A stretch of 46,482 nt of DNA from positions 1 through 46,482 of the IMG/VR virus record IMGVR_UViG_3300035670_000367; one strand, written 5' to 3'. Origin of the DNA: a virus. The position numbers and the translations under genes are program-made. This document shows, one piece after another, positions 3,364 through 37,714 of the stretch. The notes under the pieces were generated by a model. The model did no database searches, was not told the origin of the DNA, and saw only the letters and a program-made list of their open reading frames with translations. The stretch's first letter is position 1; the number at the start of each line of letters is the position of its first letter.

Positions 3364-4057
3364 ATATCATACCCCTATTACAGAAATTTATGATTTCCTT
3401 GGTAAGTTTATTACTAAAGGTATGAAAGTATTAGAGCTTGGACCTGGAGTTCTTCCTTTTCCATATGCAACTCATTTTTGTGGTTGGTTAGATTCTGAAA
3501 GAGAAAAGTTATCTAATTATAAAGTTGTTGATTTTTCTAAAGATAAATTTCCATATGAAGATAAAGAATTTAATTTTGTTTATGCAAGACACGTTTTAGA
3601 AGATTTATATAATCCATTTAATTGTATAGAAGAAATGTCTAGAGTTGCAAAAGCTGGTTTTATTGAATGTCCATCTCCATTAGCTGAAGTATCTAGAGAA
3701 TCTGAAAATTGGAAAGATGAAAATTATAAATTCAAATGGAGAGGATATAATCATCATCATTATTTTATTTGGAATGATGGTCAATTGAATTTTTTACATA
3801 AATTTCCAGTTGTTGAACATATGCAAATAAATGAAGAAGATCGTGTATTAGAACTTTTAAAAGATAAGTATAATTGGAATACTTATTATCTGTGGAAAGA
3901 TAACATAAAATATAAACATCACGAACACCCAAAAGATTATTTTGCACCAGGTAATAATGAATATGCAGAATTAGTGGTAAAAGGAGTTAATAGTTCAATA
4001 ATTAATGCTGGAAACTTTAAGAAAAAAATGCTAAAGATAGAGAGTGAAAGAAGTTAA
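3356..4057 (+). CDS. Class I SAM-dependent methyltransferase
   Basis: It overlaps the FkbM gene by 8 bases. Motif I is VLELGPGVLPFPY near residue 25. The segment DKFPYEDKEFNFVYARHVLE at about 62-81 matches the post-motif region of type-11 methyltransferases (acidic strand 4, then H-x-L-E). The C-terminal half is His/Trp/Tyr-rich (YNHHHYFIWNDGQLNF) and does not match a family I can name. It is probably a sugar or small-molecule methyltransferase working with its neighbours. Substrate unknown. Confidence 0.75.
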   Translation: MIKYHTPITEIYDFLGKFITKGMKVLELGPGVLPFPYATHFCGWLDSEREKLSNYKVVDFSKDKFPYEDKEFNFVYARHVLEDLYNPFNCIEEMSRVAKAGFIECPSPLAEVSRESENWKDENYKFKWRGYNHHHYFIWNDGQLNFLHKFPVVEHMQINEEDRVLELLKDKYNWNTYYLWKDNIKYKHHEHPKDYFAPGNNEYAELVVKGVNSSIINAGNFKKKMLKIESERS

Positions 4058-4060
4058 AAT

Positions 4061-4993
4061 ATGAATCCTAAAGGTGGAACAGAGATCTTAAAAGAACAAC
4101 TTATTGCTCAACTACCAGAAGAATCATTAGATGGAATTAATCTAATTGGTTCTATTTGTCATCCATCACTTGTTAAAGAAGATAAGATAAACATTCTTTG
4201 GCAACATTTAAGTTATGATCAGCCCAATGTTAGGTTAATGCAAGATCGTAAATTCGTAGATTCCATTGATTACTTTATCTATGTTAGTCATTGGCAGTAC
4301 AATAGATTTAGAGAAATTTATAAAATTCCAGAATACAAATCTTTTGTAATTAAGAATGCAACTCATACATTTGATATAGTTGAAAAACAAAAAGATAATA
4401 AAATAAAATTATTATATACCTCAACTCCTTGGCGTGGACTTGCAGTATTAATTAAATCCATTGAGATATTAAACAAAACAAGAGAAGATTTTGAGGTTGA
4501 TATTTATTCATCTACTAAAATATATGGATCAAAATTTGATGAAAATGAAAAAGATAAATTTGAAGTATTATTTGATAAATGTAAAAATACACCTAATGTT
4601 AATTATCTTGGTTATGCAGATAATGATTCAGTAAGAGTTGCAGTACAAAAAGCTCACATTTATGCTTATCCCTCTATCTTTGAAGAAACATCTTGTCTTG
4701 CTGTTATAGAAGCGATGTCAGCAGGATGTCATGTTGTTACAACTAACTATGGTGCTTTACCTGAAACCTGTGGTGAGTTTGCAACGATGATTGAATTTGA
4801 TTCTAGTGGCCAGAATTTAATTGAACGATATGCAGAAACATTAAACTCTGTCATTGACAATTATAAAAATAATTTATATAAGGATGATTTAGAAATGCAA
4901 ATTAAATACTATAACAAAAATTATTCCTGGGAAACCAGAATACAAGAATGGAAAAACTTTTTAAATTATGTCAGAACAGAAAAAACACGTTAA
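4061..4993 (+). CDS. Glycosyltransferase family 4 (GT-B)
   Basis: 310 aa. The N-terminal GG of NPKGGTEILKEQL is the usual donor-side glycine loop. The C-terminal domain has LLYTSTPWRGLAVLIKSIEI, then YLGYADNDSVRVAVQKA and the GT4 E-x7-E region SIFEETSCLAVIEAMSAG. The product transfers a sugar from a nucleotide-sugar donor. It is shorter than most GT4 enzymes because the N-terminal domain is compact. It lies 3 bases after the methyltransferase and overlaps the next gene by 26 bases. Confidence 0.85.
   Translation: MNPKGGTEILKEQLIAQLPEESLDGINLIGSICHPSLVKEDKINILWQHLSYDQPNVRLMQDRKFVDSIDYFIYVSHWQYNRFREIYKIPEYKSFVIKNATHTFDIVEKQKDNKIKLLYTSTPWRGLAVLIKSIEILNKTREDFEVDIYSSTKIYGSKFDENEKDKFEVLFDKCKNTPNVNYLGYADNDSVRVAVQKAHIYAYPSIFEETSCLAVIEAMSAGCHVVTTNYGALPETCGEFATMIEFDSSGQNLIERYAETLNSVIDNYKNNLYKDDLEMQIKYYNKNYSWETRIQEWKNFLNYVRTEKTR
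4854..4882 (+). promoter_or_regulatory. Possible intragenic sigma70-type promoter
   Basis: TTGACA at 4854-4859, a 17-base spacer and TATAAG at 4877-4882 lie inside the end of the GT4 gene, about 85 bases before the next glycosyltransferase. The match is strong, but the DNA is AT-rich coding sequence, so chance is a real alternative. Confidence 0.3.
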
Positions 4994-5714
4994 GCTATTT
5001 ATAGCAACACCAGCATTCGGTCATCAAGTAACAACCAATTATGCAAACAGTTTATTAAAGTTTGTATCAACATCTCATCCAAGATTAGCAGTAGCATCAG
5101 CAGTACACATGCAATCAGGAATGGCTTTAGTTACTCAAGCTAGAAATAATTGTGTAGCTTATTTTCTTAATTCAGACTGCACGCATTTTTTATTTATAGA
5201 CGCGGACATTGGATTTGAACCAGAAGCAATCTTTAGATTAATAGAAAAAGACGTACCTTTATGTTTAACACCATATCCAGTTAAAGGTTATGGTAAAGAT
5301 AATCAATTACAATTCATAGTTCATTTTCCAGATAAAAATAATGTAAGAGTAGATAAAGATGGCTTTGCAGAAATAGTTGCAGGACCTACCGGATTCATGA
5401 TGATTAAAAGAGAAGTCTTCACTAAACTTGCAGAGAAATATCCAGAACGAAAAACAGTTAATAAACAATTAGTAGGTAATAAAGTAGAGACTATGGAAAA
5501 AGGTTGGTATACCTTCTTTGAAACAGCACAAGATCCTGAAAATGGATACCTTGGTGAAGACATTGCTTTCTGCAGATTATGGACTAATATTGGTGGTAAA
5601 ATATACGCGGATACACAAACGCCGCTCACGCATTTCGGATCGCATGCATTTCATGGTAGTTTAAGCACAATGTTTGCTAAACAAAAACCGATTGACGATA
5701 AGAAAAAAGAGTAG
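4968..5714 (+). CDS. GT-A-like glycosyltransferase
   Basis: 248 aa. It begins with KLFIATPAFGHQVTTNYANS and carries a D-x-D metal site in THFLFIDADIGFEPEAIF at about residue 72, the hallmark of GT-A nucleotide-sugar transferases. A later GEDIAFCRLW segment resembles the acceptor-side ED motif. Similar proteins occur in many marine phage tail regions. It is the last gene of the glyco/methyl block; transcription may continue into the virion genes 48 bases downstream. Donor and acceptor are unknown. Confidence 0.75.
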   Translation: MSEQKKHVKLFIATPAFGHQVTTNYANSLLKFVSTSHPRLAVASAVHMQSGMALVTQARNNCVAYFLNSDCTHFLFIDADIGFEPEAIFRLIEKDVPLCLTPYPVKGYGKDNQLQFIVHFPDKNNVRVDKDGFAEIVAGPTGFMMIKREVFTKLAEKYPERKTVNKQLVGNKVETMEKGWYTFFETAQDPENGYLGEDIAFCRLWTNIGGKIYADTQTPLTHFGSHAFHGSLSTMFAKQKPIDDKKKE

Positions 5715-14254: not shown

Positions 14255-14827
14255 ATGAATAAACTTTTAGTACACAAACATTTAATTATTCGTGCTGAAG
14301 CTAAAAATCCTCCAATGGATGTTGCTGTTCTTCGCAAGTGGTTTCAAAAATTTATTAATGAAATTGGAATGAAAGTTATGATGGGTCCATATATTAAATA
14401 TTCTCACATGGTAGGTAATCGAGGAATCACAGGAGCAGCTATCATAGAAACAAGTCATATAGTAATGCATGTTTGGGATGAACCCGATCCCGCCTTATTA
14501 CAATTTGATGTCTATTCCTGTGGCGAGTTTGACCCTGAAACAATTTGTAATAAAATAAAAAAAGATTTTAATACTACAAAAATAGAATATAAATTTCTAG
14601 ATCGTGAACATGATCTACAAGAAATACATACTTTAACATATACAGATCCGATAGTTAAAAATTATGAGAATAGAGAAATAGAAAAGAAAAATAATGCATT
14701 ATTAAAAAGTAGAAAAGAAGTTGAGATTAATGGTAGTGGGACTCATGGATATAGAATTAAAGAAGGTATTCATAAAGGCACAGTTGTTGGCCATATTACA
14801 AGAGAAAAATCAGTACTTGAAAATTAA
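14255..14827 (+). CDS. speD: S-adenosylmethionine decarboxylase proenzyme (SpeD-like)
   Basis: 190 aa. The bacterial-type AdoMetDC core is clear: a processing segment with S67-H68 (ETSHIVMHVW), a second histidine at 72, and C89 in FDVYSCGEF. By comparison with known enzymes, S67 would become the pyruvoyl group, H72 would assist processing and C89 would be the proton donor. The glutamate that normally precedes the serine is Thr66 here, with a glutamate one position earlier. The enzyme would decarboxylate SAM for spermidine synthesis, although SpeD-fold proteins that act on arginine or ornithine are known. A charged C-terminal extension of about 50 residues is extra. It stands apart from the virion operon, with hsp20 next. 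Confidence 0.85.
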   Translation: MNKLLVHKHLIIRAEAKNPPMDVAVLRKWFQKFINEIGMKVMMGPYIKYSHMVGNRGITGAAIIETSHIVMHVWDEPDPALLQFDVYSCGEFDPETICNKIKKDFNTTKIEYKFLDREHDLQEIHTLTYTDPIVKNYENREIEKKNNALLKSRKEVEINGSGTHGYRIKEGIHKGTVVGHITREKSVLEN

Positions 14828-14834
14828 TAAATAA

Positions 14835-14906
14835 TCATTATATCTCCTCTAGGTTGCATCATGTGGATGGACCAATTAACTTGCTTAACAAAGGAGATAA
14901 TTATGA
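14835..14906 (+). promoter_or_regulatory. Possible RNA thermometer masking the hsp20 ribosome-binding site
   Basis: TATCTCCT at 14841-14848 is perfectly complementary to AGGAGATA at 14892-14899, which contains the hsp20 Shine-Dalgarno sequence. After a small internal loop, TCAT at 14835-14838 can pair with ATGA at 14903-14906, covering the start codon. The loop between holds a second hairpin (CATC 14857-14860 with GATG 14866-14869, extended by GGT/ACC). RNA thermometers that hide the ribosome-binding site are a known control of small heat-shock genes. Function here is inference. Confidence 0.5.
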
Positions 14907-15325
14907 CAAACCTAGAAGTTTTCAATAATTTAAATAAGCAACTATTCAACGGATCAACAAAGTTTTTTGATGATGCGTTTGAAAATATTTTTGACACGTG
15001 GTCAAAAGTACAATCATTCCCTTTCTATAACGTAGTAAAATACTCAAAGGGTAAATACGGATTAGAAATCGGTTTAGCTGGCTACAACAAAGAGAACGTA
15101 CTTGTAGAAGTTAAAGATGGTATCTTAACAATAGAAGGAAAAGTAGAAGATAAGAATGTAGACTATGTACAAAAAGGTCTAGCATTTAGAAAATTTTTCA
15201 AACAGTTTGAATTAGCTAAAGACGTAATAGTTGATGAAGCTGAAATGAAAGATGGTCTACTTAAAATCAAACTTGGTTTTAACGAACCTAAAGATATTGA
15301 AGGCGTTAAAATAGATATTAAGTAA
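14903..15325 (+). CDS. Small heat-shock protein, Hsp20/alpha-crystallin family
   Basis: The start is ATG 14903, 6 bases after AAGGAG. The protein is 140 aa, normal for IbpA-like sHSPs. The N-terminal arm is Phe-rich, followed by an alpha-crystallin domain with GLEIGLAGYNKENVLVEVKD and the conserved GLAFRKFFKQFEL and MKDGLLKIKL segments near the end. The C-terminal I-x-I-type tail is weak (VKIDIK). It would hold unfolding proteins during infection. Marine phages are known to carry hsp20. It lies between speD and a tiny membrane protein. Confidence 0.9.
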   Translation: MTNLEVFNNLNKQLFNGSTKFFDDAFENIFDTWSKVQSFPFYNVVKYSKGKYGLEIGLAGYNKENVLVEVKDGILTIEGKVEDKNVDYVQKGLAFRKFFKQFELAKDVIVDEAEMKDGLLKIKLGFNEPKDIEGVKIDIK

Positions 15326-18838: not shown

Positions 18839-20473
18839 ATGGAAAGAAATTTTATAGAGTATTTTACTGGGTTGCAAAGAAACTTTGGTTTTGCAGATTT
18901 AACAAAAAACATAAAAGATCCAACTACAGGTAAATTAAAACCAGAATACGGTTGGTCAAAGCAGCCAATAGCTGAACAAGACTATTTAGATCATTTAAGT
19001 GGTAATAAATCTATAGGTATACAACCTTGTAATGATGAAGGTATGGCAAGGTTTGGTGCTATAGATATTGATTCAAAAGATTATAAAGATTTTTCAATAA
19101 AAAAATATTTAGATTTAATAAAGAAATATGATTTACCTTTAATTCCAATTAAATCAAAAAGTGGTGGACTACATCTTTATATATTTTTAAAAGAACCGGT
19201 TAAGGCAATAATTATTAAGAAATTTTTAGAAGGTTTATTGTTCACACTACAACTACCTTTAAGAATAGAAATTTTTCCAAAGCAAACAGAACTAGGTAAA
19301 GATGCTGAAGGAAATTTTATTAATGGTAATTTTATTAATCTTCCTTACTATAATAAATCAGAAAGAGTAGCTGTTAACTTTGATGGTAAACCATTTACAT
19401 TTGAACAGTTTATAAAGGTAGTAGAAGCAAACTTAAAAACAGAAAAAGAATTAGAAGAGTTTTCATTAGCCCACGTGAAAACTGTACTACAGGGAGGCCC
19501 ATCTGAATTTGACGATGGTCCTCCTTGTCTACAGATGATGACTAAAGATGAGTTGGATGATGGAAGAGATAGATGGCTATATAACTATATGGTGTTTGCT
19601 AAAAAGAAATACCAGGATAAGTGGGAAGAAATGGTTATTGATGCTCCTAAAAAATATTTTTTAAAAGATTCTAATGGATTAGTTATTGATGATTGGGGTG
19701 AGAAAAAAGTAAGAGATAAAATTAGATCTTGGAAAAAAGATTCTACTAAAGGTTATACATGTACTCAAGAACCTATTGTAAACTTTTGTATGAAAACAGA
19801 GTGCGCAAAAAGAAAATATGGATTTTTATCCGACAAGAAAGCTTTGTTTCCTAAATTATCTAGTTTAGTTAAAATTAAATATCCAGAACCTGAATACACA
19901 TTTAATGTTGAATTACCTAATGGTGATTCTAAAAATGTAAAAGCAAAACATATTAAACAAATAGTATTACAAGAAGAAATAAGATCTATTATTGCAGCTG
20001 CTGCAGATTTTGTTCCACCAAAAGTAAAATCAAATGAATTTCAAGAAGTGTTAGATAATTTATTTCCTCCTAAAGAAGAACTACTTCCTCCTAAAGGAAC
20101 TACTCCTGATGAACAATTAGCAGAGTATTTAAAAGAATATATTAATGGGCCACAAGCTAAATCCAATGCCTCATTTAAAACTGGAGCTGTATTAATAGAA
20201 GGTGATTATGCTTATTTTAAATATCAAAGTTTTTACAATTCTTTAAAGAATAAGGATTGGAGATTAGATAAATCTAAAACAGCTGAAAAAATAATACAGA
20301 TTGGTGGCGATAAAGAAACTAAAATTAATATACCTAAAAGATTTCCTAAAAAACCAGGAGAAAAAGAATCTCATGATCCAATTGATGTAATACAAATACC
20401 TATTAGCAAGTTTAAAATTAAAACTTCTAAAGTTGAAATGATACCTGTCAAATCTAAAAAGGATATATTCTAA
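18839..20473 (+). CDS. AEP primase-polymerase, TOTE-like
   Basis: 544 aa. The three archaeo-eukaryotic primase motifs are visible: DIDSKD with D76 and D78 (metal ligands), SKSGGLH at 106-112 (nucleotide-binding S-x-H type) and RIEIFPKQ at 142-149. The arrangement WSKQP, IGIQPCND and RFGAIDIDS matches the TOTE-type AEP group. A Cys-containing segment (YTCTQEPIVNFCMKTEC) near residue 315 may bind zinc. It would prime replication for the polymerase encoded downstream. It ends one base into the helicase ATG. Confidence 0.8.
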   Translation: MERNFIEYFTGLQRNFGFADLTKNIKDPTTGKLKPEYGWSKQPIAEQDYLDHLSGNKSIGIQPCNDEGMARFGAIDIDSKDYKDFSIKKYLDLIKKYDLPLIPIKSKSGGLHLYIFLKEPVKAIIIKKFLEGLLFTLQLPLRIEIFPKQTELGKDAEGNFINGNFINLPYYNKSERVAVNFDGKPFTFEQFIKVVEANLKTEKELEEFSLAHVKTVLQGGPSEFDDGPPCLQMMTKDELDDGRDRWLYNYMVFAKKKYQDKWEEMVIDAPKKYFLKDSNGLVIDDWGEKKVRDKIRSWKKDSTKGYTCTQEPIVNFCMKTECAKRKYGFLSDKKALFPKLSSLVKIKYPEPEYTFNVELPNGDSKNVKAKHIKQIVLQEEIRSIIAAAADFVPPKVKSNEFQEVLDNLFPPKEELLPPKGTTPDEQLAEYLKEYINGPQAKSNASFKTGAVLIEGDYAYFKYQSFYNSLKNKDWRLDKSKTAEKIIQIGGDKETKINIPKRFPKKPGEKESHDPIDVIQIPISKFKIKTSKVEMIPVKSKKDIF

Positions 20474-27419: not shown

Positions 27420-27643
27420 AAAAAGAAAAACAATTAAAGAATATCTACGATGATTTTTTAGAATTCTTAATTAAAAAATTAGTTCAGTACGAAGACTCGC
27501 AGTTGATAGCATCGACGATGATTGCGCAGGCTTTACGATTATATAAATCAACTTTAACTGACAAAGAATACAGAGAGATGATGAATACCGTTATTAAAAC
27601 TTCAAGGACCATTAAACCTTTTGTAATAAAAACTTTACACTAA
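27416..27643 (+). CDS. Helical protein with GTG start, 75 aa
   Basis: The GTG start overlaps the preceding TGA stop (GTGA), a typical coupled arrangement. The protein is helical (IYDDFLEFLIKKLVQYEDSQ), without cysteines or membrane span. No family recognised. Confidence 0.6.
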   Translation: MKKEKQLKNIYDDFLEFLIKKLVQYEDSQLIASTMIAQALRLYKSTLTDKEYREMMNTVIKTSRTIKPFVIKTLH

Positions 27644-28557
27644 TGATAATAAACTTAAATAAATTTCAAAAAATAACTAATTTAAATTTTGATTTAACTG
27701 ATGAAAGACCTATTATTTATTTCTTAATTAAGGTCAATGATGATACTTCAAGATATAAAAGAGTCAATGGTCAATATGTTGAAGATAGAGATGGAAACTT
27801 TGTTATTGATGAAGGTTATGATCCATTTGAACTTAGAAAAAGAATATTAATTTATATTGGTGAAACCATTAATTCATTAGCTAGAATACATGAACACTAT
27901 TATGCAGGTAAAAAAGGAAAGAGTAAACGTCTGTCAAAAGGAATAGGAAATAAATTTAACTACATTCGTATTATGAGAGGATTTAAACGATTTAGTTATG
28001 ACAGTGTAAGATTACATGAAGAAACAAAATTAGTAAGAAAATATCTTCCGGAAGAAAATCAATCATCACGGGTTACGGAAAAATCTAGAATGATTATATT
28101 AAATAGTAACGGAAAGGTGGTTCCTCAAGATTTATTTTATCCATATAAAATTCACGGACGAGATTATTATAAAGCATTTAGAGCCTGGGAAGCTGAAGAC
28201 ATATCTATTATTGAAGGTGATATAATTTCAGCTGAAAGAACAAATAAAGTTGGCATTGTAAATCACAAGACCAATAATAATTCTTTTTACAGCAACAAGA
28301 ATGGAGCAAAATTACCTTTTCATCAATGGTTTAAATCAGTTGTTATTTGTAGACATAAAAAACAATTAGAAGCAATGGCAGTTTGGAGAAGAAATTTAAA
28401 TACATGGACCAAATTATATGCTCCTGAGTTTTATGATGATAAATTAGTTAGAGATAGAAAATATGATAGAAGTAAAAATTCAGAACGCAAATTAAAATAT
28501 GACAGAGCTTATCGAAAAATGGTAAGGAACAACAGAAAGGAAACCATATGCACATAG
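27643..28557 (+). CDS. GIY-YIG-like endonuclease with an insertion
   Basis: 304 aa. The first strand PIIYFLIKV (24-31) stands in for GIY; after an unusual insertion of about 38 residues comes ILIYIGETINSLARIHEHY (68-86), with the YIG-type strand and R81. An HEETKLVRKYLPEEN segment (125-139) supplies the metal-binding glutamate and the usual Y-P-x-x-N end. The C-terminal half is basic and may bind DNA. It may be a homing, repair or genome-degrading nuclease. Both ends overlap neighbours, so it is integrated in the operon rather than freshly inserted. Confidence 0.65.
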   Translation: MIINLNKFQKITNLNFDLTDERPIIYFLIKVNDDTSRYKRVNGQYVEDRDGNFVIDEGYDPFELRKRILIYIGETINSLARIHEHYYAGKKGKSKRLSKGIGNKFNYIRIMRGFKRFSYDSVRLHEETKLVRKYLPEENQSSRVTEKSRMIILNSNGKVVPQDLFYPYKIHGRDYYKAFRAWEAEDISIIEGDIISAERTNKVGIVNHKTNNNSFYSNKNGAKLPFHQWFKSVVICRHKKQLEAMAVWRRNLNTWTKLYAPEFYDDKLVRDRKYDRSKNSERKLKYDRAYRKMVRNNRKETICT

Positions 28558-32607: not shown

Positions 32608-32970
32608 ATGAAACCAGAGTCAAAATTTTGGCTTGAAGTTAAAAAGAATATTAAAGAAATTTCCTTTACAAGGCTTGAATCTTGGGCCTCTGCTGGTGTT
32701 CCAGATCTATTGTGCTGCAATAAAAATGGAAAGTTTTTCACAGTTGAATTGAAAGTAACTTCCAGTCAAGGAATAAGATTCTCTCCACATCAAATTGCAT
32801 TTCACGTGAAGCATCCACACAATACTTTTATCTTAAAAAAGGCCCTCGGTCCTTTGTCCATAAAACTTTATACAGGTTCCGATATCCTCAAACTTGCGGG
32901 CCGTGAAGCTTGCACCCCTGTCGCCGAATCATGGGCCAAGGTCCAGGAAGTCTTTGTCAATGTGACATAG
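32608..32970 (+). CDS. VRR-NUC / PD-(D/E)XK-type nuclease
   Basis: 120 aa. The nuclease core is GVPDLL with D33, KFFTVELKV with E47 and K49, and the following SPHQIAFH helix, the layout of VRR-NUC and Holliday-junction-resolvase-like phage enzymes. It would cut branched or damaged DNA, perhaps before packaging. Its last codons and stop lie within the first copy of the GC-rich repeat, so the repeat forms the gene's 3' end. Confidence 0.75.
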   Translation: MKPESKFWLEVKKNIKEISFTRLESWASAGVPDLLCCNKNGKFFTVELKVTSSQGIRFSPHQIAFHVKHPHNTFILKKALGPLSIKLYTGSDILKLAGREACTPVAESWAKVQEVFVNVT

Positions 32971-33080
32971 TGTCGCAGTGTGATATTTTTGTCACACGAA
33001 ACACTTGTGGGCGGGTCCCACCCAGTGTGCCTTGCTCCCTGGCTCTTGGCACACGAAACACTTGTGGGCGGGTCCCACCC
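32962..33080 (+). repeat. Composite repeat unit 1 (one A palindrome, two B copies)
   Basis: Element A is an imperfect version, GTGACATAGTGTCGC at 32962-32976. Element B occurs twice as an identical 31-base direct repeat at 32993-33023 and 33050-33080; its centre is a GTGGG/CCCAC stem around CGGGT. Between the copies, GTGTGCC (33025-33031) can pair with GGCACAC (33048-33054). A GC-rich CTGCCTG microrepeat follows to 33137. Confidence 0.85.
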
Positions 33081-33174
33081 GGAGTTAAAAAAATTACACT
33101 TGCTTGCGCCTTGTTGCCTGCTGCCTGCTGCCTGCTTGCGCCTTTTAATTTTTAGTTTTTATTTTAGGGAAATT

Positions 33175-33199
33175 CAGGGCCCGATGAACACGGGCCCTG
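33175..33199 (-). terminator. GC-rich hairpin at the end of cassette 1
   Basis: CAGGGCCCG and CGGGCCCTG form a perfect 9-bp stem with a 7-base loop, 8 bases beyond the stop of the minus-strand gene. No U-tract follows in that direction, so termination may be partial or need a factor. A T-rich block (TTTTTAGTTTTT, 33150-33161) beside it recurs next to the hairpin of cassette 2. Confidence 0.5.
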
Positions 33200-33207
33200 T
33201 TACAACG

Positions 33208-33453
33208 TTAGGAAGCTTTTGCAAATTTATCTTTAAGGTCGATTCTGCCTTCAACTAGCAGAAGGTATTCACCCCCGCTGCTGCCGTGGGGCTCTCTCCA
33301 TACTTCGAAGAAATCCCCATCCTTCTCCCGTCTTAAACGGGTTACTATCTTACCCTGCCAGCTTTGGGCCTCAACTCTCAGTGAGTGATGCGCTCTAGCT
33401 GTAGGCTGAGTCTTTCTTGCAGACTCAGATATCCTTCCATAAAAGTGACTCAT
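33208..33453 (-). CDS. Conserved phage protein, MSHFYG type, 81 aa
   Basis: Begins MSHFYGRISESARKTQPTAR and has a central beta pattern (RVEAQSWQGKIVTRLRREKD). Short proteins starting M-S-x-F-Y-G with a W-x-G core are spread among phages of several groups. Function unknown. ATGA-coupled to the zinc-finger gene above it and last in a three-gene minus-strand unit. Confidence 0.65.
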   Translation of the reverse strand: MSHFYGRISESARKTQPTARAHHSLRVEAQSWQGKIVTRLRREKDGDFFEVWREPHGSSGGEYLLLVEGRIDLKDKFAKAS

Positions 33454-33692
33454 ATTCTTACCTCCTTTATTTCTTTTAGTTTTTTACTTCCACAATCAAT
33501 GCATTCACCATTACCTTCGCAGGTGTACTCTCCACACTCCTCGCATTCTAGATAACATTCCTTGATTGTTTCAATTTCACACTCAATGCACTTGTAACCT
33601 TCTTCATCTTCTAGCCAAGCAGGTATTCTATTTACAAATAACCCAGTGCCAAATGAAGTGTCCCTTCTGCACCATAAGCATGTATTAGTCAT
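33450..33692 (-). CDS. Multi-cysteine zinc-binding protein, 80 aa
   Basis: It has five CxxC pairs (CLWC, CIEC, CEEC, CIDC and one spaced pair) and the phrase GTGLFVNRIPA found in similar marine phage proteins. It probably binds two or three zinc ions and acts as a protein or nucleic acid adaptor. Overlaps both neighbours by ATGA. Confidence 0.65.
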   Translation of the reverse strand: MTNTCLWCRRDTSFGTGLFVNRIPAWLEDEEGYKCIECEIETIKECYLECEECGEYTCEGNGECIDCGSKKLKEIKEVRI

Positions 33693-33859
33693 TTTACATT
33701 ACCTATTAAGTTGTATAGATTTTGAAATTCTTCTTTTGCATCTACTTCCGAAAAACTCCAATCTATATTAGTGTTAACAAGCAGCATCGCTTTAAGCTTA
33801 ATCAATTGAAGCTTAAGCTTGCGATTCTGTCTAGTTAACTTTGTTATTGTTTTTTTCAT
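33689..33859 (-). CDS. First gene of cassette 1: basic helical peptide, 56 aa
   Basis: It starts about 20 bases after the expected transcription start of the 33.9 kb promoter, following CGAAAGAG, and ends in an ATGA overlap. The N-terminal half is a basic helix (KKTITKLTRQNRKLKLQLIK); the rest includes NIDWSFSEVDAKEEF. Unknown function. Confidence 0.6.
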   Translation of the reverse strand: MKKTITKLTRQNRKLKLQLIKLKAMLLVNTNIDWSFSEVDAKEEFQNLYNLIGNVK

Positions 33860-33886
33860 ACTTTTTTCTCTTTCGTTATTGATTCA

Positions 33887-33916
33887 ATTATATCCTACAA
33901 TCTCCCATCTTGTCAA
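33887..33916 (-). promoter_or_regulatory. Consensus promoter of cassette 1
   Basis: On the minus strand: TTGACA (33916-33911), an 18-base spacer ending GATTGTAGGA, then TATAAT (33892-33887). The GTAGGATATAAT context is shared with the 34.7 kb promoter on the other strand. The leader contains CGAAAGAG. Confidence 0.8.
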
Positions 33917-33982
33917 ATCTAATCTTGAGCCCTGCTGCCTGAACCCTGATGCAGGGCACATGCAACCTGAGGTTATGTCAAT

Positions 33983-34031
33983 GCGACATAATGTCGCAGG
34001 TACACTAAACACTTGTGGGCGGGTCCCACCC
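33983..34031 (+). repeat. Composite repeat unit 2 (A + B)
   Basis: Element A is the perfect palindrome GCGACATAATGTCGC (33983-33997). After 9 bases comes the 25-base B core at 34007-34031 with its GTGGG/CCCAC stem. An A-rich tract and a GCTTGC microrepeat follow (34032-34070). Confidence 0.85.
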
Positions 34032-34101
34032 GTAAAAAAAAGAAAAAAATTAGAGCTTGCTTGCTTGCGCCTTATTATTTTTAGTTTTTAATTGGAGTTG
34101 T

Positions 34102-34122
34102 GGCGCCCGTTGTTCGGGCGCC
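34102..34122 (-). terminator. GC-rich hairpin at the end of cassette 2
   Basis: GGCGCCCG and CGGGCGCC form a perfect 8-bp stem with loop TTGTT, 8 bases beyond the stop of the last minus-strand gene. The T-rich TTTTTAGTTTTT block (34079-34090) stands beside it, as in cassette 1. There is no clear U-tract. Confidence 0.5.
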
Positions 34123-34130
34123 GTTGTGAA

Positions 34131-34319
34131 TTATACTTCGTTAACTTCTTCAATCACGGGCGGGAAAAAATACTCCTGCTCCGTGTGTTCATCGGGCCGC
34201 TCCCAGTCCTTCGTGTTAGCCAAAGCAATTTCCTTGGCTTCCTCTGGACTGTCAGCCTCTACTTCATAGAACATATAGTCTCTATAGTAGGCTACGATGG
34301 AGTAGGTTTTTTTAGTCAT
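34131..34319 (-). CDS. Small protein, 62 aa
   Basis: I choose the ATG at 34319, 7 bases after GAAGGAG; an upstream in-frame ATG at 34340 would ignore that site. Sequence MTKKTYSIVAYYRDYMFYEV, then EADSPEEAKEIALANTKDWE: a small beta-alpha fold with aromatic strands, similar to short phage proteins of unknown role. It overlaps the previous gene by 8 bases. Confidence 0.6.
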   Translation of the reverse strand: MTKKTYSIVAYYRDYMFYEVEADSPEEAKEIALANTKDWERPDEHTEQEYFFPPVIEEVNEV

Positions 34320-34437
34320 CTGCATTCTCCTTCGGGTCAAATTTTATAATTACATGCATTCCATCTTCATGCTCTGCAGTAACTTCAAATTCAACACCAG
34401 ACTTTTCTAGTGCTTTCAGCACTTCGTCCATAGTCAT
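34312..34437 (-). CDS. Small acidic protein, 41 aa
   Basis: ATG 34437 follows CGAAAGGA with suitable spacing. Sequence MTMDEVLKALEKSGVEFEVT and on to KFDPKENADD. A hairpin of AGACTGAC with GTCAGTCT (34459-34466 and 34487-34494) lies upstream in the message. Function unknown. Confidence 0.55.
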   Translation of the reverse strand: MTMDEVLKALEKSGVEFEVTAEHEDGMHVIIKFDPKENADD

Positions 34438-34543
34438 GTGTTTTCCTTTCGTTGTAGAAGACTGACAGTGGCAAACGACCCAGACCGTCAGTCTCCCCAT
34501 TTGTTACGGTAGTCACCCGTCTCACCAGAAACGATCTGTACAA
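34391..34543 (-). CDS. Possible TTG-started 50-aa protein, first in cassette 2
   Basis: A reading frame from TTG 34543, 5 bases after AAAGGAG, gives LYRSFLVRRVTTVTNGETDG then LGRLPLSVFYNERKTHD and a basic tail. It sits 30 bases from the expected start of transcription, as the first genes of the other cassettes do, and its leader shares CGAAAGGAG. It overlaps the 41-aa gene in another frame by 47 bases. An ATG at 34564 is an alternative start without a ribosome-binding site. Confidence 0.5.
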   Translation of the reverse strand: MYRSFLVRRVTTVTNGETDGLGRLPLSVFYNERKTHDYGRSAESTRKVWC

Positions 34544-34579
34544 TCTCTCTCCTTTCGGATTCATCTGGCTGCAATTAAA

Positions 34580-34608
34580 ACTATATCCTATGTTATCCCA
34601 TAACACAA
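34580..34608 (-). promoter_or_regulatory. Probable promoter of cassette 2
   Basis: On the minus strand: TTGTGT (34608-34603), a 17-base spacer ending ACATAGGA, then TATAGT (34585-34580). Weaker hexamers than its neighbours, but the TAGGATATA context matches the promoters at 33.9 and 34.7 kb. It abuts element A of repeat unit 3. Confidence 0.55.
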
Positions 34609-34609
34609 T

Positions 34610-34695
34610 GCGACATAGTGTCGCAGGCCCACTAAACACTTGTGGGCGGGTCCCACCCACAAAAAACACTAAACACTTGAGGGCGGGTCCCACCC
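34610..34695 (+). repeat. Composite repeat unit 3 (A + two B copies)
   Basis: Element A is GCGACATAGTGTCGC (34610-34624). The B core occurs at 34634-34658 and again at 34671-34695. In the second copy GTGGG has become GAGGG, which weakens the stem. An A-rich tract follows, then the promoter of cassette 3. Confidence 0.85.
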
Positions 34696-34729
34696 GGGGA
34701 AAAAAAATAAAAATAATTAACTTTAGAGC

Positions 34730-34759
34730 TTGACAACATAGGACAATGTAGGATATAAT
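34730..34759 (+). promoter_or_regulatory. Consensus promoter of cassette 3
   Basis: TTGACA at 34730-34735, an 18-base spacer ending AATGTAGGA, TATAAT at 34754-34759. The leader is about 24 bases long and contains CGAAAGGA as ribosome-binding site for ATG 34790. Confidence 0.85.
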
Positions 34760-34789
34760 AATCGCATAACAACAACGAAAGGATAAAAC

Positions 34790-35362
34790 ATGAGACCAAT
34801 AAGAAAACAAGAACTTGATTATTTAGATCGACTTATCAATAACAAGTTCCAAGAAAAGCAAAGCGCAATACGATCACAGTGCGAACTAGAAGTTGAAAAG
34901 CAATTAGAAAAGGACTTTACAAAGTTTTTATCTACTTTGAAACTTGAAAAGCTTTTAAAAGAAGCTGAACAAGCTGAAAAGGACTTTGAAGACTTTAAAC
35001 GTAATAAAGACAATAAAGAACAAGAACTGTCATCTATAGCGTTTAAAAAAAGAACTGCTTTGTCAGAAAAAATTAATCAGTGGTCTAATATTAGAGACTG
35101 GTCAATAACTAGTAGACATGACAACGTAGACGAAGCTATGAGTAATTTAAAAAAAGCTTGTAGACAAGAACTTGAAGAGAAATATAAAAACTCTGAAAAG
35201 GGCAAGTTCTTTAAATATCTTCAAAATGGAATTGAAGACGCTAGAAATACGTTATACTCTGGCTTGTCTATTGATGACGTTTGGAAAAACTTGGAAAGCA
35301 TATTCAATAAAGCACAAATTGAAGTACGTGTGCCAAAGTCCTTTGCACAAATTGCTAAATAA
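34790..35362 (+). CDS. Coiled-coil moron-like protein, 190 aa
   Basis: It is a stand-alone gene with its own perfect promoter, an AAAGGA site and a strong terminator, placed between repeat units 3 and 4. The protein is almost all helix: basic start, coiled coil at about 40-80 (KLEKLLKEAEQAEKDFEDFK), more helix (QWSNIRDWSITSRHDNVDEA), and a short C-terminal segment (EVRVPKSFAQIAK). No enzyme motif or membrane span is present. An independently expressed accessory gene of this kind is often a host-interference or anti-defence factor, but nothing here proves that. Confidence 0.7.
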   Translation: MRPIRKQELDYLDRLINNKFQEKQSAIRSQCELEVEKQLEKDFTKFLSTLKLEKLLKEAEQAEKDFEDFKRNKDNKEQELSSIAFKKRTALSEKINQWSNIRDWSITSRHDNVDEAMSNLKKACRQELEEKYKNSEKGKFFKYLQNGIEDARNTLYSGLSIDDVWKNLESIFNKAQIEVRVPKSFAQIAK

Positions 35363-35380
35363 TTCTTTTCGTTAAGAATA

Positions 35381-35408
35381 AACAACGCCCGGAGTTCCGG
35401 GCGTTGTT
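35381..35408. terminator. Strong bidirectional hairpin between convergent genes
   Basis: AACAACGCCCGG and CCGGGCGTTGTT form a perfect 12-bp stem with loop AGTT. It lies between the ends of the plus-strand cassette gene and the minus-strand pair and could stop transcription from both sides. U-tracts are poor, but the stem is very stable. Confidence 0.65.
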
Positions 35409-35415
35409 GTTAAGA

Positions 35416-35562
35416 TTACTCTGATATTACTTCTAAATCGTCGAGTGAGTTGTCAGTGCCAGTCATGTAGTTTGCTTTGAACTCACACTCCTGGACTGGT
35501 GTTCCTGTTTCTTGAGACAAGGAACAGGAAACAGTTTCAGTTAAATTAATATCTAGTTCCAT
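35416..35562 (-). CDS. Small acidic protein, 48 aa
   Basis: The start at ATG 35562 lies just after the stop of the upstream gene; a longer form from 35607 would overlap it. Sequence MELDINLTETVSCSLSQETG then a Thr/Asp-rich end, with two cysteines. The TTTTTAGTTTTT block also occurs here, at 35568-35579. Function unknown. Confidence 0.5.
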   Translation of the reverse strand: MELDINLTETVSCSLSQETGTPVQECEFKANYMTGTDNSLDDLEVISE

Positions 35563-35563
35563 A

Positions 35564-35908
35564 TTAATTTTTAGTTTTTGTTGAGTACTCAACGTCTCTC
35601 TCAACACTTTTAACTTGTATTCTAATAAATTTTGCTCTTGATAAGTTAGAGCAATTTATAGTTAGTCCTTTATATTTATTTAGTAAGTCTCTAATTTGTG
35701 TTGGTGTAAGTTTTTCACAACCAGCAAAAAGAGGATAACTTACTTTTTCTATAAACATTATTCTAAATATTAACTCATCTATTGTTGAATTGTTTATAGT
35801 GCTTATATGCGTTGCCATTAATACAAAGCCAACTGAATCACACTCATTGTGATTAAAGTCCTTTGAGTTAAAGCTTTCGCACTTATCTCTATATACAAGC
35901 AGTGCCAT
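35564..35908 (-). CDS. Unknown protein, 114 aa
   Basis: It follows a CGAAAGAG leader. Cys-rich N-terminal half (MALLVYRDKCESFNSKDFNH), then hydrophobic helix-forming segments (IDELIFRIMFIEKVSYPLFA) and a basic C-terminus. No family recognised. It is first gene of the minus-strand half of cassette 3. Confidence 0.55.
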   Translation of the reverse strand: MALLVYRDKCESFNSKDFNHNECDSVGFVLMATHISTINNSTIDELIFRIMFIEKVSYPLFAGCEKLTPTQIRDLLNKYKGLTINCSNLSRAKFIRIQVKSVERDVEYSTKTKN

Positions 35909-35943
35909 GTTATTACCTTTCTCTTTCGTTAAATTAAATACAG

Positions 35944-35972
35944 ATTATCAAATGAAATAAATCTTGCTACAA
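35944..35972 (-). promoter_or_regulatory. Possible promoter of the minus-strand pair in cassette 3
   Basis: On the minus strand: TTGTAG (35972-35967), a 17-base spacer, GATAAT (35949-35944). It has a 29-base leader with CGAAAGAG before ATG 35908, matching the other cassettes. The -35 hexamer is weak. Confidence 0.45.
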
Positions 35973-36026
35973 CTATTTGCATTCGGTTTGTGCGTTGCAT
36001 TTATATCACTACTATTACTTGGGGCT

Positions 36027-36069
36027 GCGACACTTTGTCGCACTAAACACATGTGGGCGGGTCCCACCC
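36027..36069 (+). repeat. Composite repeat unit 4 (A + B)
   Basis: Element A is GCGACACTTTGTCGC (36027-36041), with a changed loop but intact arms. The B core at 36045-36069 has one change (CTTG to CATG) outside the GTGGG/CCCAC stem. Conservation of the arms rather than the loop suggests that structure matters. Confidence 0.85.
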
Positions 36070-36229
36070 GAAGAAGAAAGGAAGAGGTCCCAATGGGTTG
36101 GCAAATACCTTTTAAGCAAGGTGGGGGGAGGGGGTAAAACAAAAAAAGGGGTCCCAGACATTACCCTTTAGTGCTGGATTTATACACCCGGGTGGGGTAT
36201 AAACTTTTTAAGGTACCATAATTAACATT

Positions 36230-37714
36230 ATGCTTGATATAGAAAAAATAAAAAATTTAAATAAGATAGCTGACCCTAAAGTAAGAAAGGAAACAAAATT
36301 AAATGTTTTGTATCGTATAGAAAAGGCTAGAAAAAATAATATAAAAAATAATTTTTTAGAATTTGTAAAATATATTTGGCCAGATTTTATTGAAGGCTTT
36401 CATCATAAAGAAATTGCAGATAAGTTTAATAGATTACAAACTGGTGAATTAAAAAGATTAATTATTAATATGCCACCAAGGCATACGAAATCAGAATTTG
36501 CTTCTTACTTTTTACCCGCTTGGATGATTGGAAATAATCCTAAATTAAAAATTATTCAAGCAACCCACACTGCAGAGCTTGCAGTACGTTTCGGTCGTAA
36601 AACTAAAAACTTGATTGATTCATCTGAATACAGAGAAATATTTAATACAAGATTACAAGAAGATTCAAAAGCCGCGGGCCGTTGGGAAACGGATCAAGGT
36701 GGTGAATACTTTGCTGTCGGTGTCCAGGGTGCGGTGACCGGTAGGGGTGCTGATTTATTAATCATCGATGATCCACATTCAGAGCAAGATGTAAATTCAG
36801 CCACAGCTTTTGATAAAGCATATGAGTGGTATACTTCAGGACCACGTCAACGTTTGCAGCCAGGTGGACGTATTGTTTTAGTTATGACTAGATGGTCAAC
36901 AAAAGATTTAACAGCACAACTCATCAAGGCTCAAGCAGCAGAAGAAAAAGCAGATCAATGGGAAGTTGTAGAATTTCCAGCCATTATGCCAAGTGGTAAA
37001 CCTTGCTGGCCAGAATATTGGAAGTTAGAAGATTTACTTGCAGTTAAAGCATCCGCTGGTATTTCAAAATGGAATGCTCAATACATGCAAGATCCAACTG
37101 CAGAAGAAGGAGCAATCATTAAACGTGAGTGGTGGAGAGATTGGACTGAAGATTATATTCCACCTTTAGAACATGTCATTCAATCTTATGATACAGCATT
37201 CATGAAAAAAGAAACTGCGGATTATTCAGCAATTACAACATGGGGCGTGTTTCATTTAAATGAGGACTCGGGCCCACAATTAATTTTACTGGATGCTAGA
37301 AAAGAACGTTTAGAGTTTCCTGAATTAAGGCGCATGGCCCACGAACAATATATGTATTGGCAACCTGAAACAGTTCTTGTTGAGGCAAAAGCATCAGGAC
37401 TTCCATTAACTTATGAACTTCGTAATATGGGTATACCCGTTATAAATTTTTCACCATCTAAAGGTAATGATAAACATGCACGAGTGAATGCTGTTGCACC
37501 TTTATTTGAATCTGGAATGATATGGGCTCCTAAATCTAAACAGTTTGCACAAGAGGTTATTGAGGAATGTGCAGCATTTCCTTATGGAGATCATGATGAT
37601 TTAGTAGATTCTATGACACAAGCGGTTATGCGATTTAGACAAGGGGGATTGATTTCTCACCCAGAAGACTATAGAGATGAAGAACTTCCAAAAACTGAGA
37701 GAAGTTATTATTAA
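36230..37714 (+). CDS. terL: Terminase large subunit
   Basis: 494 aa. The ATPase P-loop is PPRHTKSE at 82-89, where most relatives have PPRHGKS. Walker B is LLIIDDPH with D180-D181, and the coupling-type motif is VMTRWS. The nuclease domain has D321 (SYDTAF), E385 (LVEAKASG) and D456-D457 with D460 (GDHDDLVDSM). It cuts concatemeric DNA and drives it into the head. It begins the head operon. Confidence 0.95.
   Translation: MLDIEKIKNLNKIADPKVRKETKLNVLYRIEKARKNNIKNNFLEFVKYIWPDFIEGFHHKEIADKFNRLQTGELKRLIINMPPRHTKSEFASYFLPAWMIGNNPKLKIIQATHTAELAVRFGRKTKNLIDSSEYREIFNTRLQEDSKAAGRWETDQGGEYFAVGVQGAVTGRGADLLIIDDPHSEQDVNSATAFDKAYEWYTSGPRQRLQPGGRIVLVMTRWSTKDLTAQLIKAQAAEEKADQWEVVEFPAIMPSGKPCWPEYWKLEDLLAVKASAGISKWNAQYMQDPTAEEGAIIKREWWRDWTEDYIPPLEHVIQSYDTAFMKKETADYSAITTWGVFHLNEDSGPQLILLDARKERLEFPELRRMAHEQYMYWQPETVLVEAKASGLPLTYELRNMGIPVINFSPSKGNDKHARVNAVAPLFESGMIWAPKSKQFAQEVIEECAAFPYGDHDDLVDSMTQAVMRFRQGGLISHPEDYRDEELPKTERSYY

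Follow-up and report, generated by a model that had tools for sequence, protein, structure and literature searches.

Comparison of viral contigs at the sequence level confirms that a modular array of accessory genes exists in SAR11-type phages, that it is punctuated by copies of a short repeat, and that this arrangement extends to a large group of relatives of the phages that infect the ocean bacterium Pelagibacter. The array was examined in the IMG/VR virus record IMGVR_UViG_3300035670_000367, a 46,482-base contig (hereafter the window) from an uncultured HTVC023P/HTVC027P-like phage, whose terL shares 66-74% DNA identity with those of the Pelagibacter phages HTVC027P and HTVC023P and of phage 023Pt_psg01. 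These comparisons directly reveal the location of the repeat, its polarity and near-invariance, the turnover of the neighbouring genes, and edges of homology at repeat edges, gene starts and gene stops. On balance, we consider it probable that the array is a fixed hypervariable island of accessory genes, similar to those associated with the promoter early stem-loops (PeSLs) of T4-type phages, and that it is cut into transcription units by a near-invariant and strictly polar element. The element is new and, judging from the sequence of its core, probably bound by a protein, and recombination at the repeats is a possible mechanism of gene exchange.

The core found in the window is 18-20 bp long (CnTGtGGGCGGGnCCCACCC) and is present in six copies, exclusively on the plus strand and exclusively between a gene encoding a putative Hjc-like nuclease and terL. 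The 23-nt core pattern matches at 33001-33023, 33058-33080, 34009-34031, 34636-34658, 34673-34695 and 36047-36069; four of these copies are identical, two carry one mismatch, and 100 shuffled sequences gave no match. Together with palindromes of the GCGACAnnnTGTCGC type located upstream, the cores form four composite units (Table 1), two of which contain a tandem pair. A pattern search over the whole window detected neither core nor palindrome elsewhere. An earlier note, made from the sequence of the window alone, had described four composite repeat units lying solely between gene units and in a single orientation, and all of them were found where it had placed them. It had also located the array between terS and terL. 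The right border is indeed terL, but the array does not begin at terS: two plus-strand genes, a 78-aa open reading frame (ORF) and the 120-aa nuclease gene, separate terS from the first repeat. The stop codon of the nuclease gene sits within the first palindrome.

Scanning viral contigs twice for the motif and once for terL retrieved at least 145 non-redundant loci carrying the core, in which core positions were counted in the stretches around each match (and over the whole contig for the window). These 145 loci hold 582 core copies (up to three mismatches), all in the same orientation and all between the nuclease gene and terL wherever those borders are present. The metagenome search that had been proposed in the earlier note therefore did not reveal the repeat at random positions of related contigs, an outcome that would have spoken against a modular site, and it allowed the cargo of 104 loci to be listed. 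Loci contain one to 11 copies (11 in one partial locus), and complete intervals three to nine, which span about 1.3-4.5 kb between unrelated genes. The first core lies at a median of 36 nt past the aligned end of the nuclease gene and the last one at a median of 181 nt ahead of terL. The stretch between the last repeat and terL opens with a conserved block (GGAAGAGGTCCCATGGGGTTGGCAAATACC in L012 and L013), which is near-identical in the window (36070-36229). Contig ends located within 1.5 kb of terL are more numerous upstream (n = 16) than downstream (n = 4; p 0.01), as expected if assemblies break at a locus that is rich in repeats and variable within the population, although other causes are possible. 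An array seemingly present at both ends of a contig (L019/L035) was so at first appearance only, the two loci appearing to be adjacent pieces of one contig. A search of 257 Gb of genomes from bacteria and archaea gave no exact copy of the core pattern, which speaks against a host-derived element. Furthermore, the repeat of the window had no match among 50,697 named phages, and our literature search found no paper with the core sequence or with an integron-like phage array.

The consensus of the core, established over 491 unique contexts, is CnTG(T)GGGCGGGnCCC(A)CCC. The core is unconstrained at its centre and at one upstream position and slightly variable at two others; the remainder is conserved in at least 97% of the contexts, an invariance that may be somewhat overstated because many loci were fetched by the motif itself. 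The same pattern of conservation was observed in a smaller earlier set that combined motif-fetched and terL-fetched loci. Since the imperfect palindrome includes a fixed C/A mismatch, the core has a direction. The 491 contexts display no compensatory changes in its arms, which speaks for recognition as double-stranded DNA rather than RNA; near-invariance, a free centre and the lack of such changes are as expected of a DNA-protein site. A sequence resembling ACTAAACAC precedes the core, and an A-rich tract follows it. The upstream palindrome accompanies about 37% of the non-tandem copies compared to 2% of shuffles, and tandem cores make up about a third of the neighbouring pairs (median distance of 44 nt). 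The centre base is common to 59% of the copies within a locus compared to 30% between loci; local duplication or gene conversion would produce such a difference, but so would relatedness alone. The repeat is found between genes in all four relative orientations and members of some array gene families face either way, but inverted cores are absent. As a unit moving freely with its repeat should leave inverted copies, only local duplication or deletion of direct repeats, or a function tied to the direction of the chromosome, would account for this. Finally, a repeat lies at most 120 nt upstream of 44-49% of the host-type promoters (both strands), compared to 18% for random positions.

The gene content between the repeats turns over much faster than the flanks. 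For pairs of loci whose terL are at least 97% identical, the array is alignable over 64% with a mean identity of 87.6%, compared to 90% at 98.7% for the 2 kb after terL and to 92% at 94.5% for the 1 kb up to the end of the nuclease gene (only four pairs for the latter). L011 and L227, for example, have identical terL but arrays alignable over just 58-69% at 84%. Because related contigs carry different small genes between the same repeats and the array turns over far more than its flanks, its interpretation as a modular array is supported, and the site of gain and loss of small genes proposed in the earlier note is upheld. Conservation of the same genes in the same order, which would have argued against this proposal, is observed in part: near terL, relatives have largely retained the order of the commonest genes, but the overall gene content turns over.

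Several pairs of relatives indicate where the differences begin and end. Where L022 has two tandem cores, L023 has a core, a terminator hairpin, a gene, a promoter, a palindrome and a core; the difference begins immediately past the first core and stops at the left edge of the second one. L013 is devoid of the last unit of L012, with homology on the terL side setting in some 12 nt ahead of the core. The difference between L018 and L022 consists of a single gene with its promoter, and its right junction is located at the palindrome. L038 and L011 carry an extra copy of the repeat, missing in the window or in L227, with a terminator hairpin on either side of it. Other junctions are located at gene edges: one gene of L202 is 88% identical to a gene of L200 although the terL of L200 is only 74% identical, whereas the repeat-promoter block of L202 is that of its close relative L060; the start and stop codons form the edges of the swap. 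The alignment of relatives suggested in the earlier note thus displays the expected differences in genes between the same repeats, with junctions at the repeats in some cases (L022/L023 and L012/L013) and at gene edges in others. Overall, 23% of 1,281 clustered breakpoints lie at most 12 nt from a core edge (2.8-fold enrichment), 21.5% equally close to a gene start (3.7-fold) and 23% to a gene stop (3.9-fold), indicating that the repeats are one of several favoured boundaries.

Several points weigh against an island organized by this element. The enrichment at core edges is not readable as crossover because the conserved core itself ends homology blocks and because the breakpoints of overlapping pairs are not independent events. 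Identity steps of at least 0.10 are only slightly more frequent across repeats (34%) than at control points (27%), an excess too slight to locate crossovers at the repeats. Moreover, sister phages devoid of the repeat lose alignability similarly at the same terL divergence (0.32 vs 0.27 at 80-88% and 0.11 vs 0.03 at 74-80%), in a comparison that includes few close pairs and in which the region after terL is itself variable in the sisters. The repeat may therefore play no part in exchange, and a turnover caused by it is unsupported by this small sample. The strict polarity of the core is not explained by a simple boundary role, we know of no protein that binds it, and early expression of the array is extrapolated from two HTVC027P genes. 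Recombination between identical repeats, as envisaged in the earlier note, is consequently not supported: gene starts and stops are at least as enriched in breakpoints, the identity steps are weak and the repeat-less sisters behave alike. In the reading that we favour, a PeSL-like island divided by a polar element, genes and units would be swapped by ordinary phage recombination, and short conserved intergenic blocks (repeat core and promoter, or terminator hairpin) would serve as homology patches, as proposed for PeSLs. The core would be kept by selection as a sequence-specific protein-binding site directed relative to the chromosome; it would most likely delimit transcription units as a boundary element and serve as a homology patch only as a by-product.

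PeSLs were reportedly presented by Arbiol in 2010 and Comeau in 2014 as mobile regulatory cassettes of T4-type phages. As summarised in PMC4503421, which cites both, they are conserved intergenic regulatory elements located between small, mostly uncharacterised genes that are shuffled between related phages. Likewise, the element described here occupies many intergenic positions of a variable region, and the genes between its copies are exchanged among relatives. It differs from the PeSLs by the phage group, by its sequence, by its restriction to one fixed locus and by its conserved part, which is a near-invariant polar core around which promoters and terminator hairpins lie separately. PeSLs combine an early promoter and a stem-loop terminator; in the array, promoters are often near the repeat yet outside it, and the strong hairpins are separate. 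Concerning a role as crossover site, another PeSL trait, the edges of our element are enriched in breakpoints, but identity steps are weak and turnover is similar without the repeat. The tailed halovirus HF2 also carries several copies of a short repeat between small genes (PMC8707807). However, the HF2 repeats carry promoters and were tested as such (PMC8707807), whereas here promoters are separate and the repeat occurs in all gene contexts.

The gene order is shared with the HTVC023P/HTVC027P-type pelagiphages (MN698239, MN698241 and 023Pt_psg01, MW574966), which display terS, an Hjc-like gene, small variable genes and terL. The core of the window was not found in these three sequences. 023Pt_psg01 instead carries, at five corresponding boundary positions (5336, 6149, 6906, 7689 and 7744), a repeat that is related to the core but distinct from it (GGGCCCACCC...), suggesting that sister lineages may have their own version of the repeat. 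HTVC027P has no such core but GCTTG-rich 7-nt repeats (3925-4061, 4815-4872 and 5145-5172), located after the nuclease gene and between leftward units. A GCTTGC sequence resembling them follows cores of the window (33095-33145 and 34056-34073).

The 120-aa protein encoded at the head of the array displays, in an alignment, the invariant R-E...PD...ExK motif of PD-(D/E)XK nucleases. Its matches to Hjc and VRR-NUC are weak but repeated (best Pfam E value for Hjc, 0.0012), and the ten best solved matches of its predicted fold are archaeal Holliday-junction resolvases, mostly Hjc. With this motif and this fold, it is a putative resolvase. Its gene heads every array whose left end is present but is also found in the repeat-less sisters. 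It therefore counts as a core gene rather than as a proven partner of the repeat, and an exclusive partnership was rejected; that it heads an array of palindromes is no more than suggestive. Homologous genes were located by tblastn in HTVC027P (3597-4010, plus strand; 59.8% identity) and 023Pt_psg01 (4838-5311, plus strand; 46.6%), in whose deposited records they are unannotated or overlapped by an opposite-strand call (gp32).

Integrons (attI/attC sites and IntI integrase) likewise combine an array of small genes, repeats in one orientation and a gene for a recombination-type enzyme at one end. However, no integrase was recognised among the Pfam and PHROG families listed for 32 window proteins (14.2-33.0 kb) and 81 array proteins, and neither transposase nor attC-like component was recognised among the families listed for this part of the window. 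Furthermore, attC sites are imperfect palindromes conserved in structure and not in sequence, whereas our core is conserved in sequence without covariation. Integron cassettes are mostly promoterless, single-gene and in one orientation, whereas the units of the array contain several genes in both orientations, many with their own promoters. By these tests of integrase, attC structure and cassette type, the array is not an integron; the earlier note had compared it to integrons in logic, not in sequence.

Four other explanations were weighed against a PeSL-like island divided by a polar element. It is rather unlikely, but deserves the most attention among them, that the repeat is purely regulatory or insulating (an operator or a boundary recognised by a DNA-binding protein of the phage or of its host) and that turnover is independent, ordinary mosaicism. 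Such a role agrees with the frequent location of the repeat directly upstream of promoters on either strand, with the resemblance of the core to a DNA-protein site, with sisters that are about equally variable without it and with breakpoints equally frequent at gene edges. It accounts less well for the first repeat of the window, which is flanked by the plus-strand nuclease gene and by the 3′ end of a minus-strand unit and next to which no promoter was seen, for repeats that are never inverted in spite of their four gene-orientation contexts, and for unit-level edges that are sometimes exactly on the core. We regard as improbable a dedicated phage cassette system, integron-like in logic but unlike integrons, in which a protein acting on the 20-bp polar core, perhaps with the Hjc-like nuclease acting on the palindromes, would load and unload early host-takeover and counter-defence genes unit by unit. 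The nuclease gene at the head of each array with its left end, repeats at both array ends, fixed polarity, insertions of units at the core edge and common tandem empty cores are all in line with it. However, the nuclease is also encoded by sisters without the core, no integrase or transposase was recognised among the families listed for the window (14.2-33.0 kb), breakpoints are equally located at gene edges, identity steps are not concentrated at cores, and single genes, not whole units alone, are swapped.

The two remaining explanations concern the core as a signal. A replication or packaging signal (pac-like site, origin or terminase-binding site) multiplied by chance beside terL would have a polarity fixed relative to the genome and would always be close to terL, as is the core, whose last copy is at a near-constant distance. 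It is nevertheless at least as improbable as a cassette system: such sites are not usually present in three to nine copies scattered among unrelated genes over about 1.3-4.5 kb, and no extremum of the cumulative GC skew coincides with the array, so that an origin found no support from this side. Transcription terminators or other RNA hairpins seem very improbable. The cores can fold as hairpins, and three of the five terminator-like sites of a scan overlap cores, on the minus strand, and one overlaps the palindrome, but intrinsic terminators display compensatory stem changes and an orientation that follows transcription. Here, no stem covariation was found, the single orientation is independent of flanking genes that run both ways, Rfam gave no match near threshold for the repeat, and the units already end in strong hairpins that are distinct from the repeat.

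Simple ORF calling in 104 loci yielded 670 array genes, some of whose short calls will be spurious, in 212 families with 134 singletons. The cargo mostly consists of orphan genes: 81 representatives matched only seven Pfam families, including GP88 and ArdC with a metallopeptidase domain. This ArdC-type protein (L218, 9234-10160, minus strand), also matched by an anti-restriction PHROG, belongs to a family found in four loci, and no known defence-system protein was detected by PADLOC among the cassette proteins. In HTVC027P, the leftward genes gp33 and gp34 of the corresponding interval have an early to middle expression, and the early genes are all of unknown function (PMC12753301). By analogy with these two genes, and considering the host-type promoters, the whole array may be early, and its genes are probably early host-takeover or counter-defence genes. 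As the early genes of SAR11-type phages are largely uncharacterised, a near-invariant tag that locates their site of small-gene shuffling in raw metagenomes is valuable: it yields a catalogue of candidate host-takeover and counter-defence genes, including ArdC anti-restriction. The locus also provides a test case for the contribution of dedicated sequence elements, as opposed to chance recombination alone, to phage gene exchange.

Table 1. Features of the array and of its borders in the window
Feature	Positions	Strand	Basis
Putative 120-aa PD-(D/E)XK nuclease, Hjc-like Holliday-junction resolvase fold	32608-32970	+	Motif, weak profile matches, predicted fold, position
Composite repeat 1: palindrome 32962-32976; cores (CnTG... 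form) 33004-33023 and 33061-33080	32962-33080	+	Pattern matches
GC-rich hairpin ending unit 1	33175-33199	-	Fold z -5.0; sequence
Unit 1 gene, 81 aa, family in 16 loci	33208-33453	-	ORF, family clustering
Unit 1 gene, 80 aa, cysteine-rich, orphan	33450-33692	-	ORF, family search
Unit 1 gene, 56 aa, orphan	33689-33859	-	ORF, family clustering
Unit 1 promoter, perfect TTGACA-18-TATAAT	33887-33916	-	Promoter scan
Composite repeat 2: palindrome 33983-33997; core 34012-34031	33983-34031	+	Pattern matches
GC-rich hairpin ending unit 2	34102-34122	-	Fold z -5.9
Unit 2 gene, 62 aa, family in 12 loci	34131-34319	-	ORF, family clustering
Unit 2 gene, 41 aa; relatives have other genes in its place	34312-34437	-	ORF, comparison
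Composite repeat 3: palindrome 34610-34624; tandem cores 34639-34658 and 34676-34695	34610-34695	+	Pattern matches
Promoter of the plus-strand gene, perfect TTGACA-18-TATAAT	34730-34759	+	Promoter scan
190-aa all-helical protein, commonest array gene family (75 loci)	34790-35362	+	Family clustering
Strong hairpin (12-bp stem) between convergent plus gene and minus pair	35381-35408		Hairpin scan, folding
Unit 3 gene, 48 aa, family in 32 loci	35416-35562	-	ORF, family clustering
Unit 3 gene, 114 aa, family in 33 loci, both orientations	35564-35908	-	ORF, family clustering
Composite repeat 4: palindrome 36027-36041; core 36050-36069	36027-36069	+	Pattern matches
terL, right border of the array	36230-37714	+	Gene layout, terL matches

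The compact transcription units described in the earlier note are recognizable in their layout (three minus-strand genes, then two, then one plus-strand gene and a minus-strand pair), but the promoter that it attributed to unit 2 was absent from the results of the promoter scan, a candidate being visible by eye only. The plus-strand gene does have the promoter and the terminator that were announced, with a perfect promoter and a hairpin with a 12-bp stem. Promoter-like sites are overall as numerous in the scan as expected by chance (9 vs 9.1). Both perfect promoters of the array have a common spacer sequence up to TGTAGGATATAAT and AACGAAAGG recurs in their leaders, which hints at a single promoter type specific to the phage. 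Outside the array, a plus-strand ORF of 304 aa (27643-28557) resembles GIY-YIG nucleases by eye (YIGET..N motif), with no PHROG match. Pfam matches also pointed to an S-adenosylmethionine decarboxylase (14255-14827), an Hsp20 (14861-15325) and a TOTE-type primase (18839-20473) in the window, the last two being placed by inspection.

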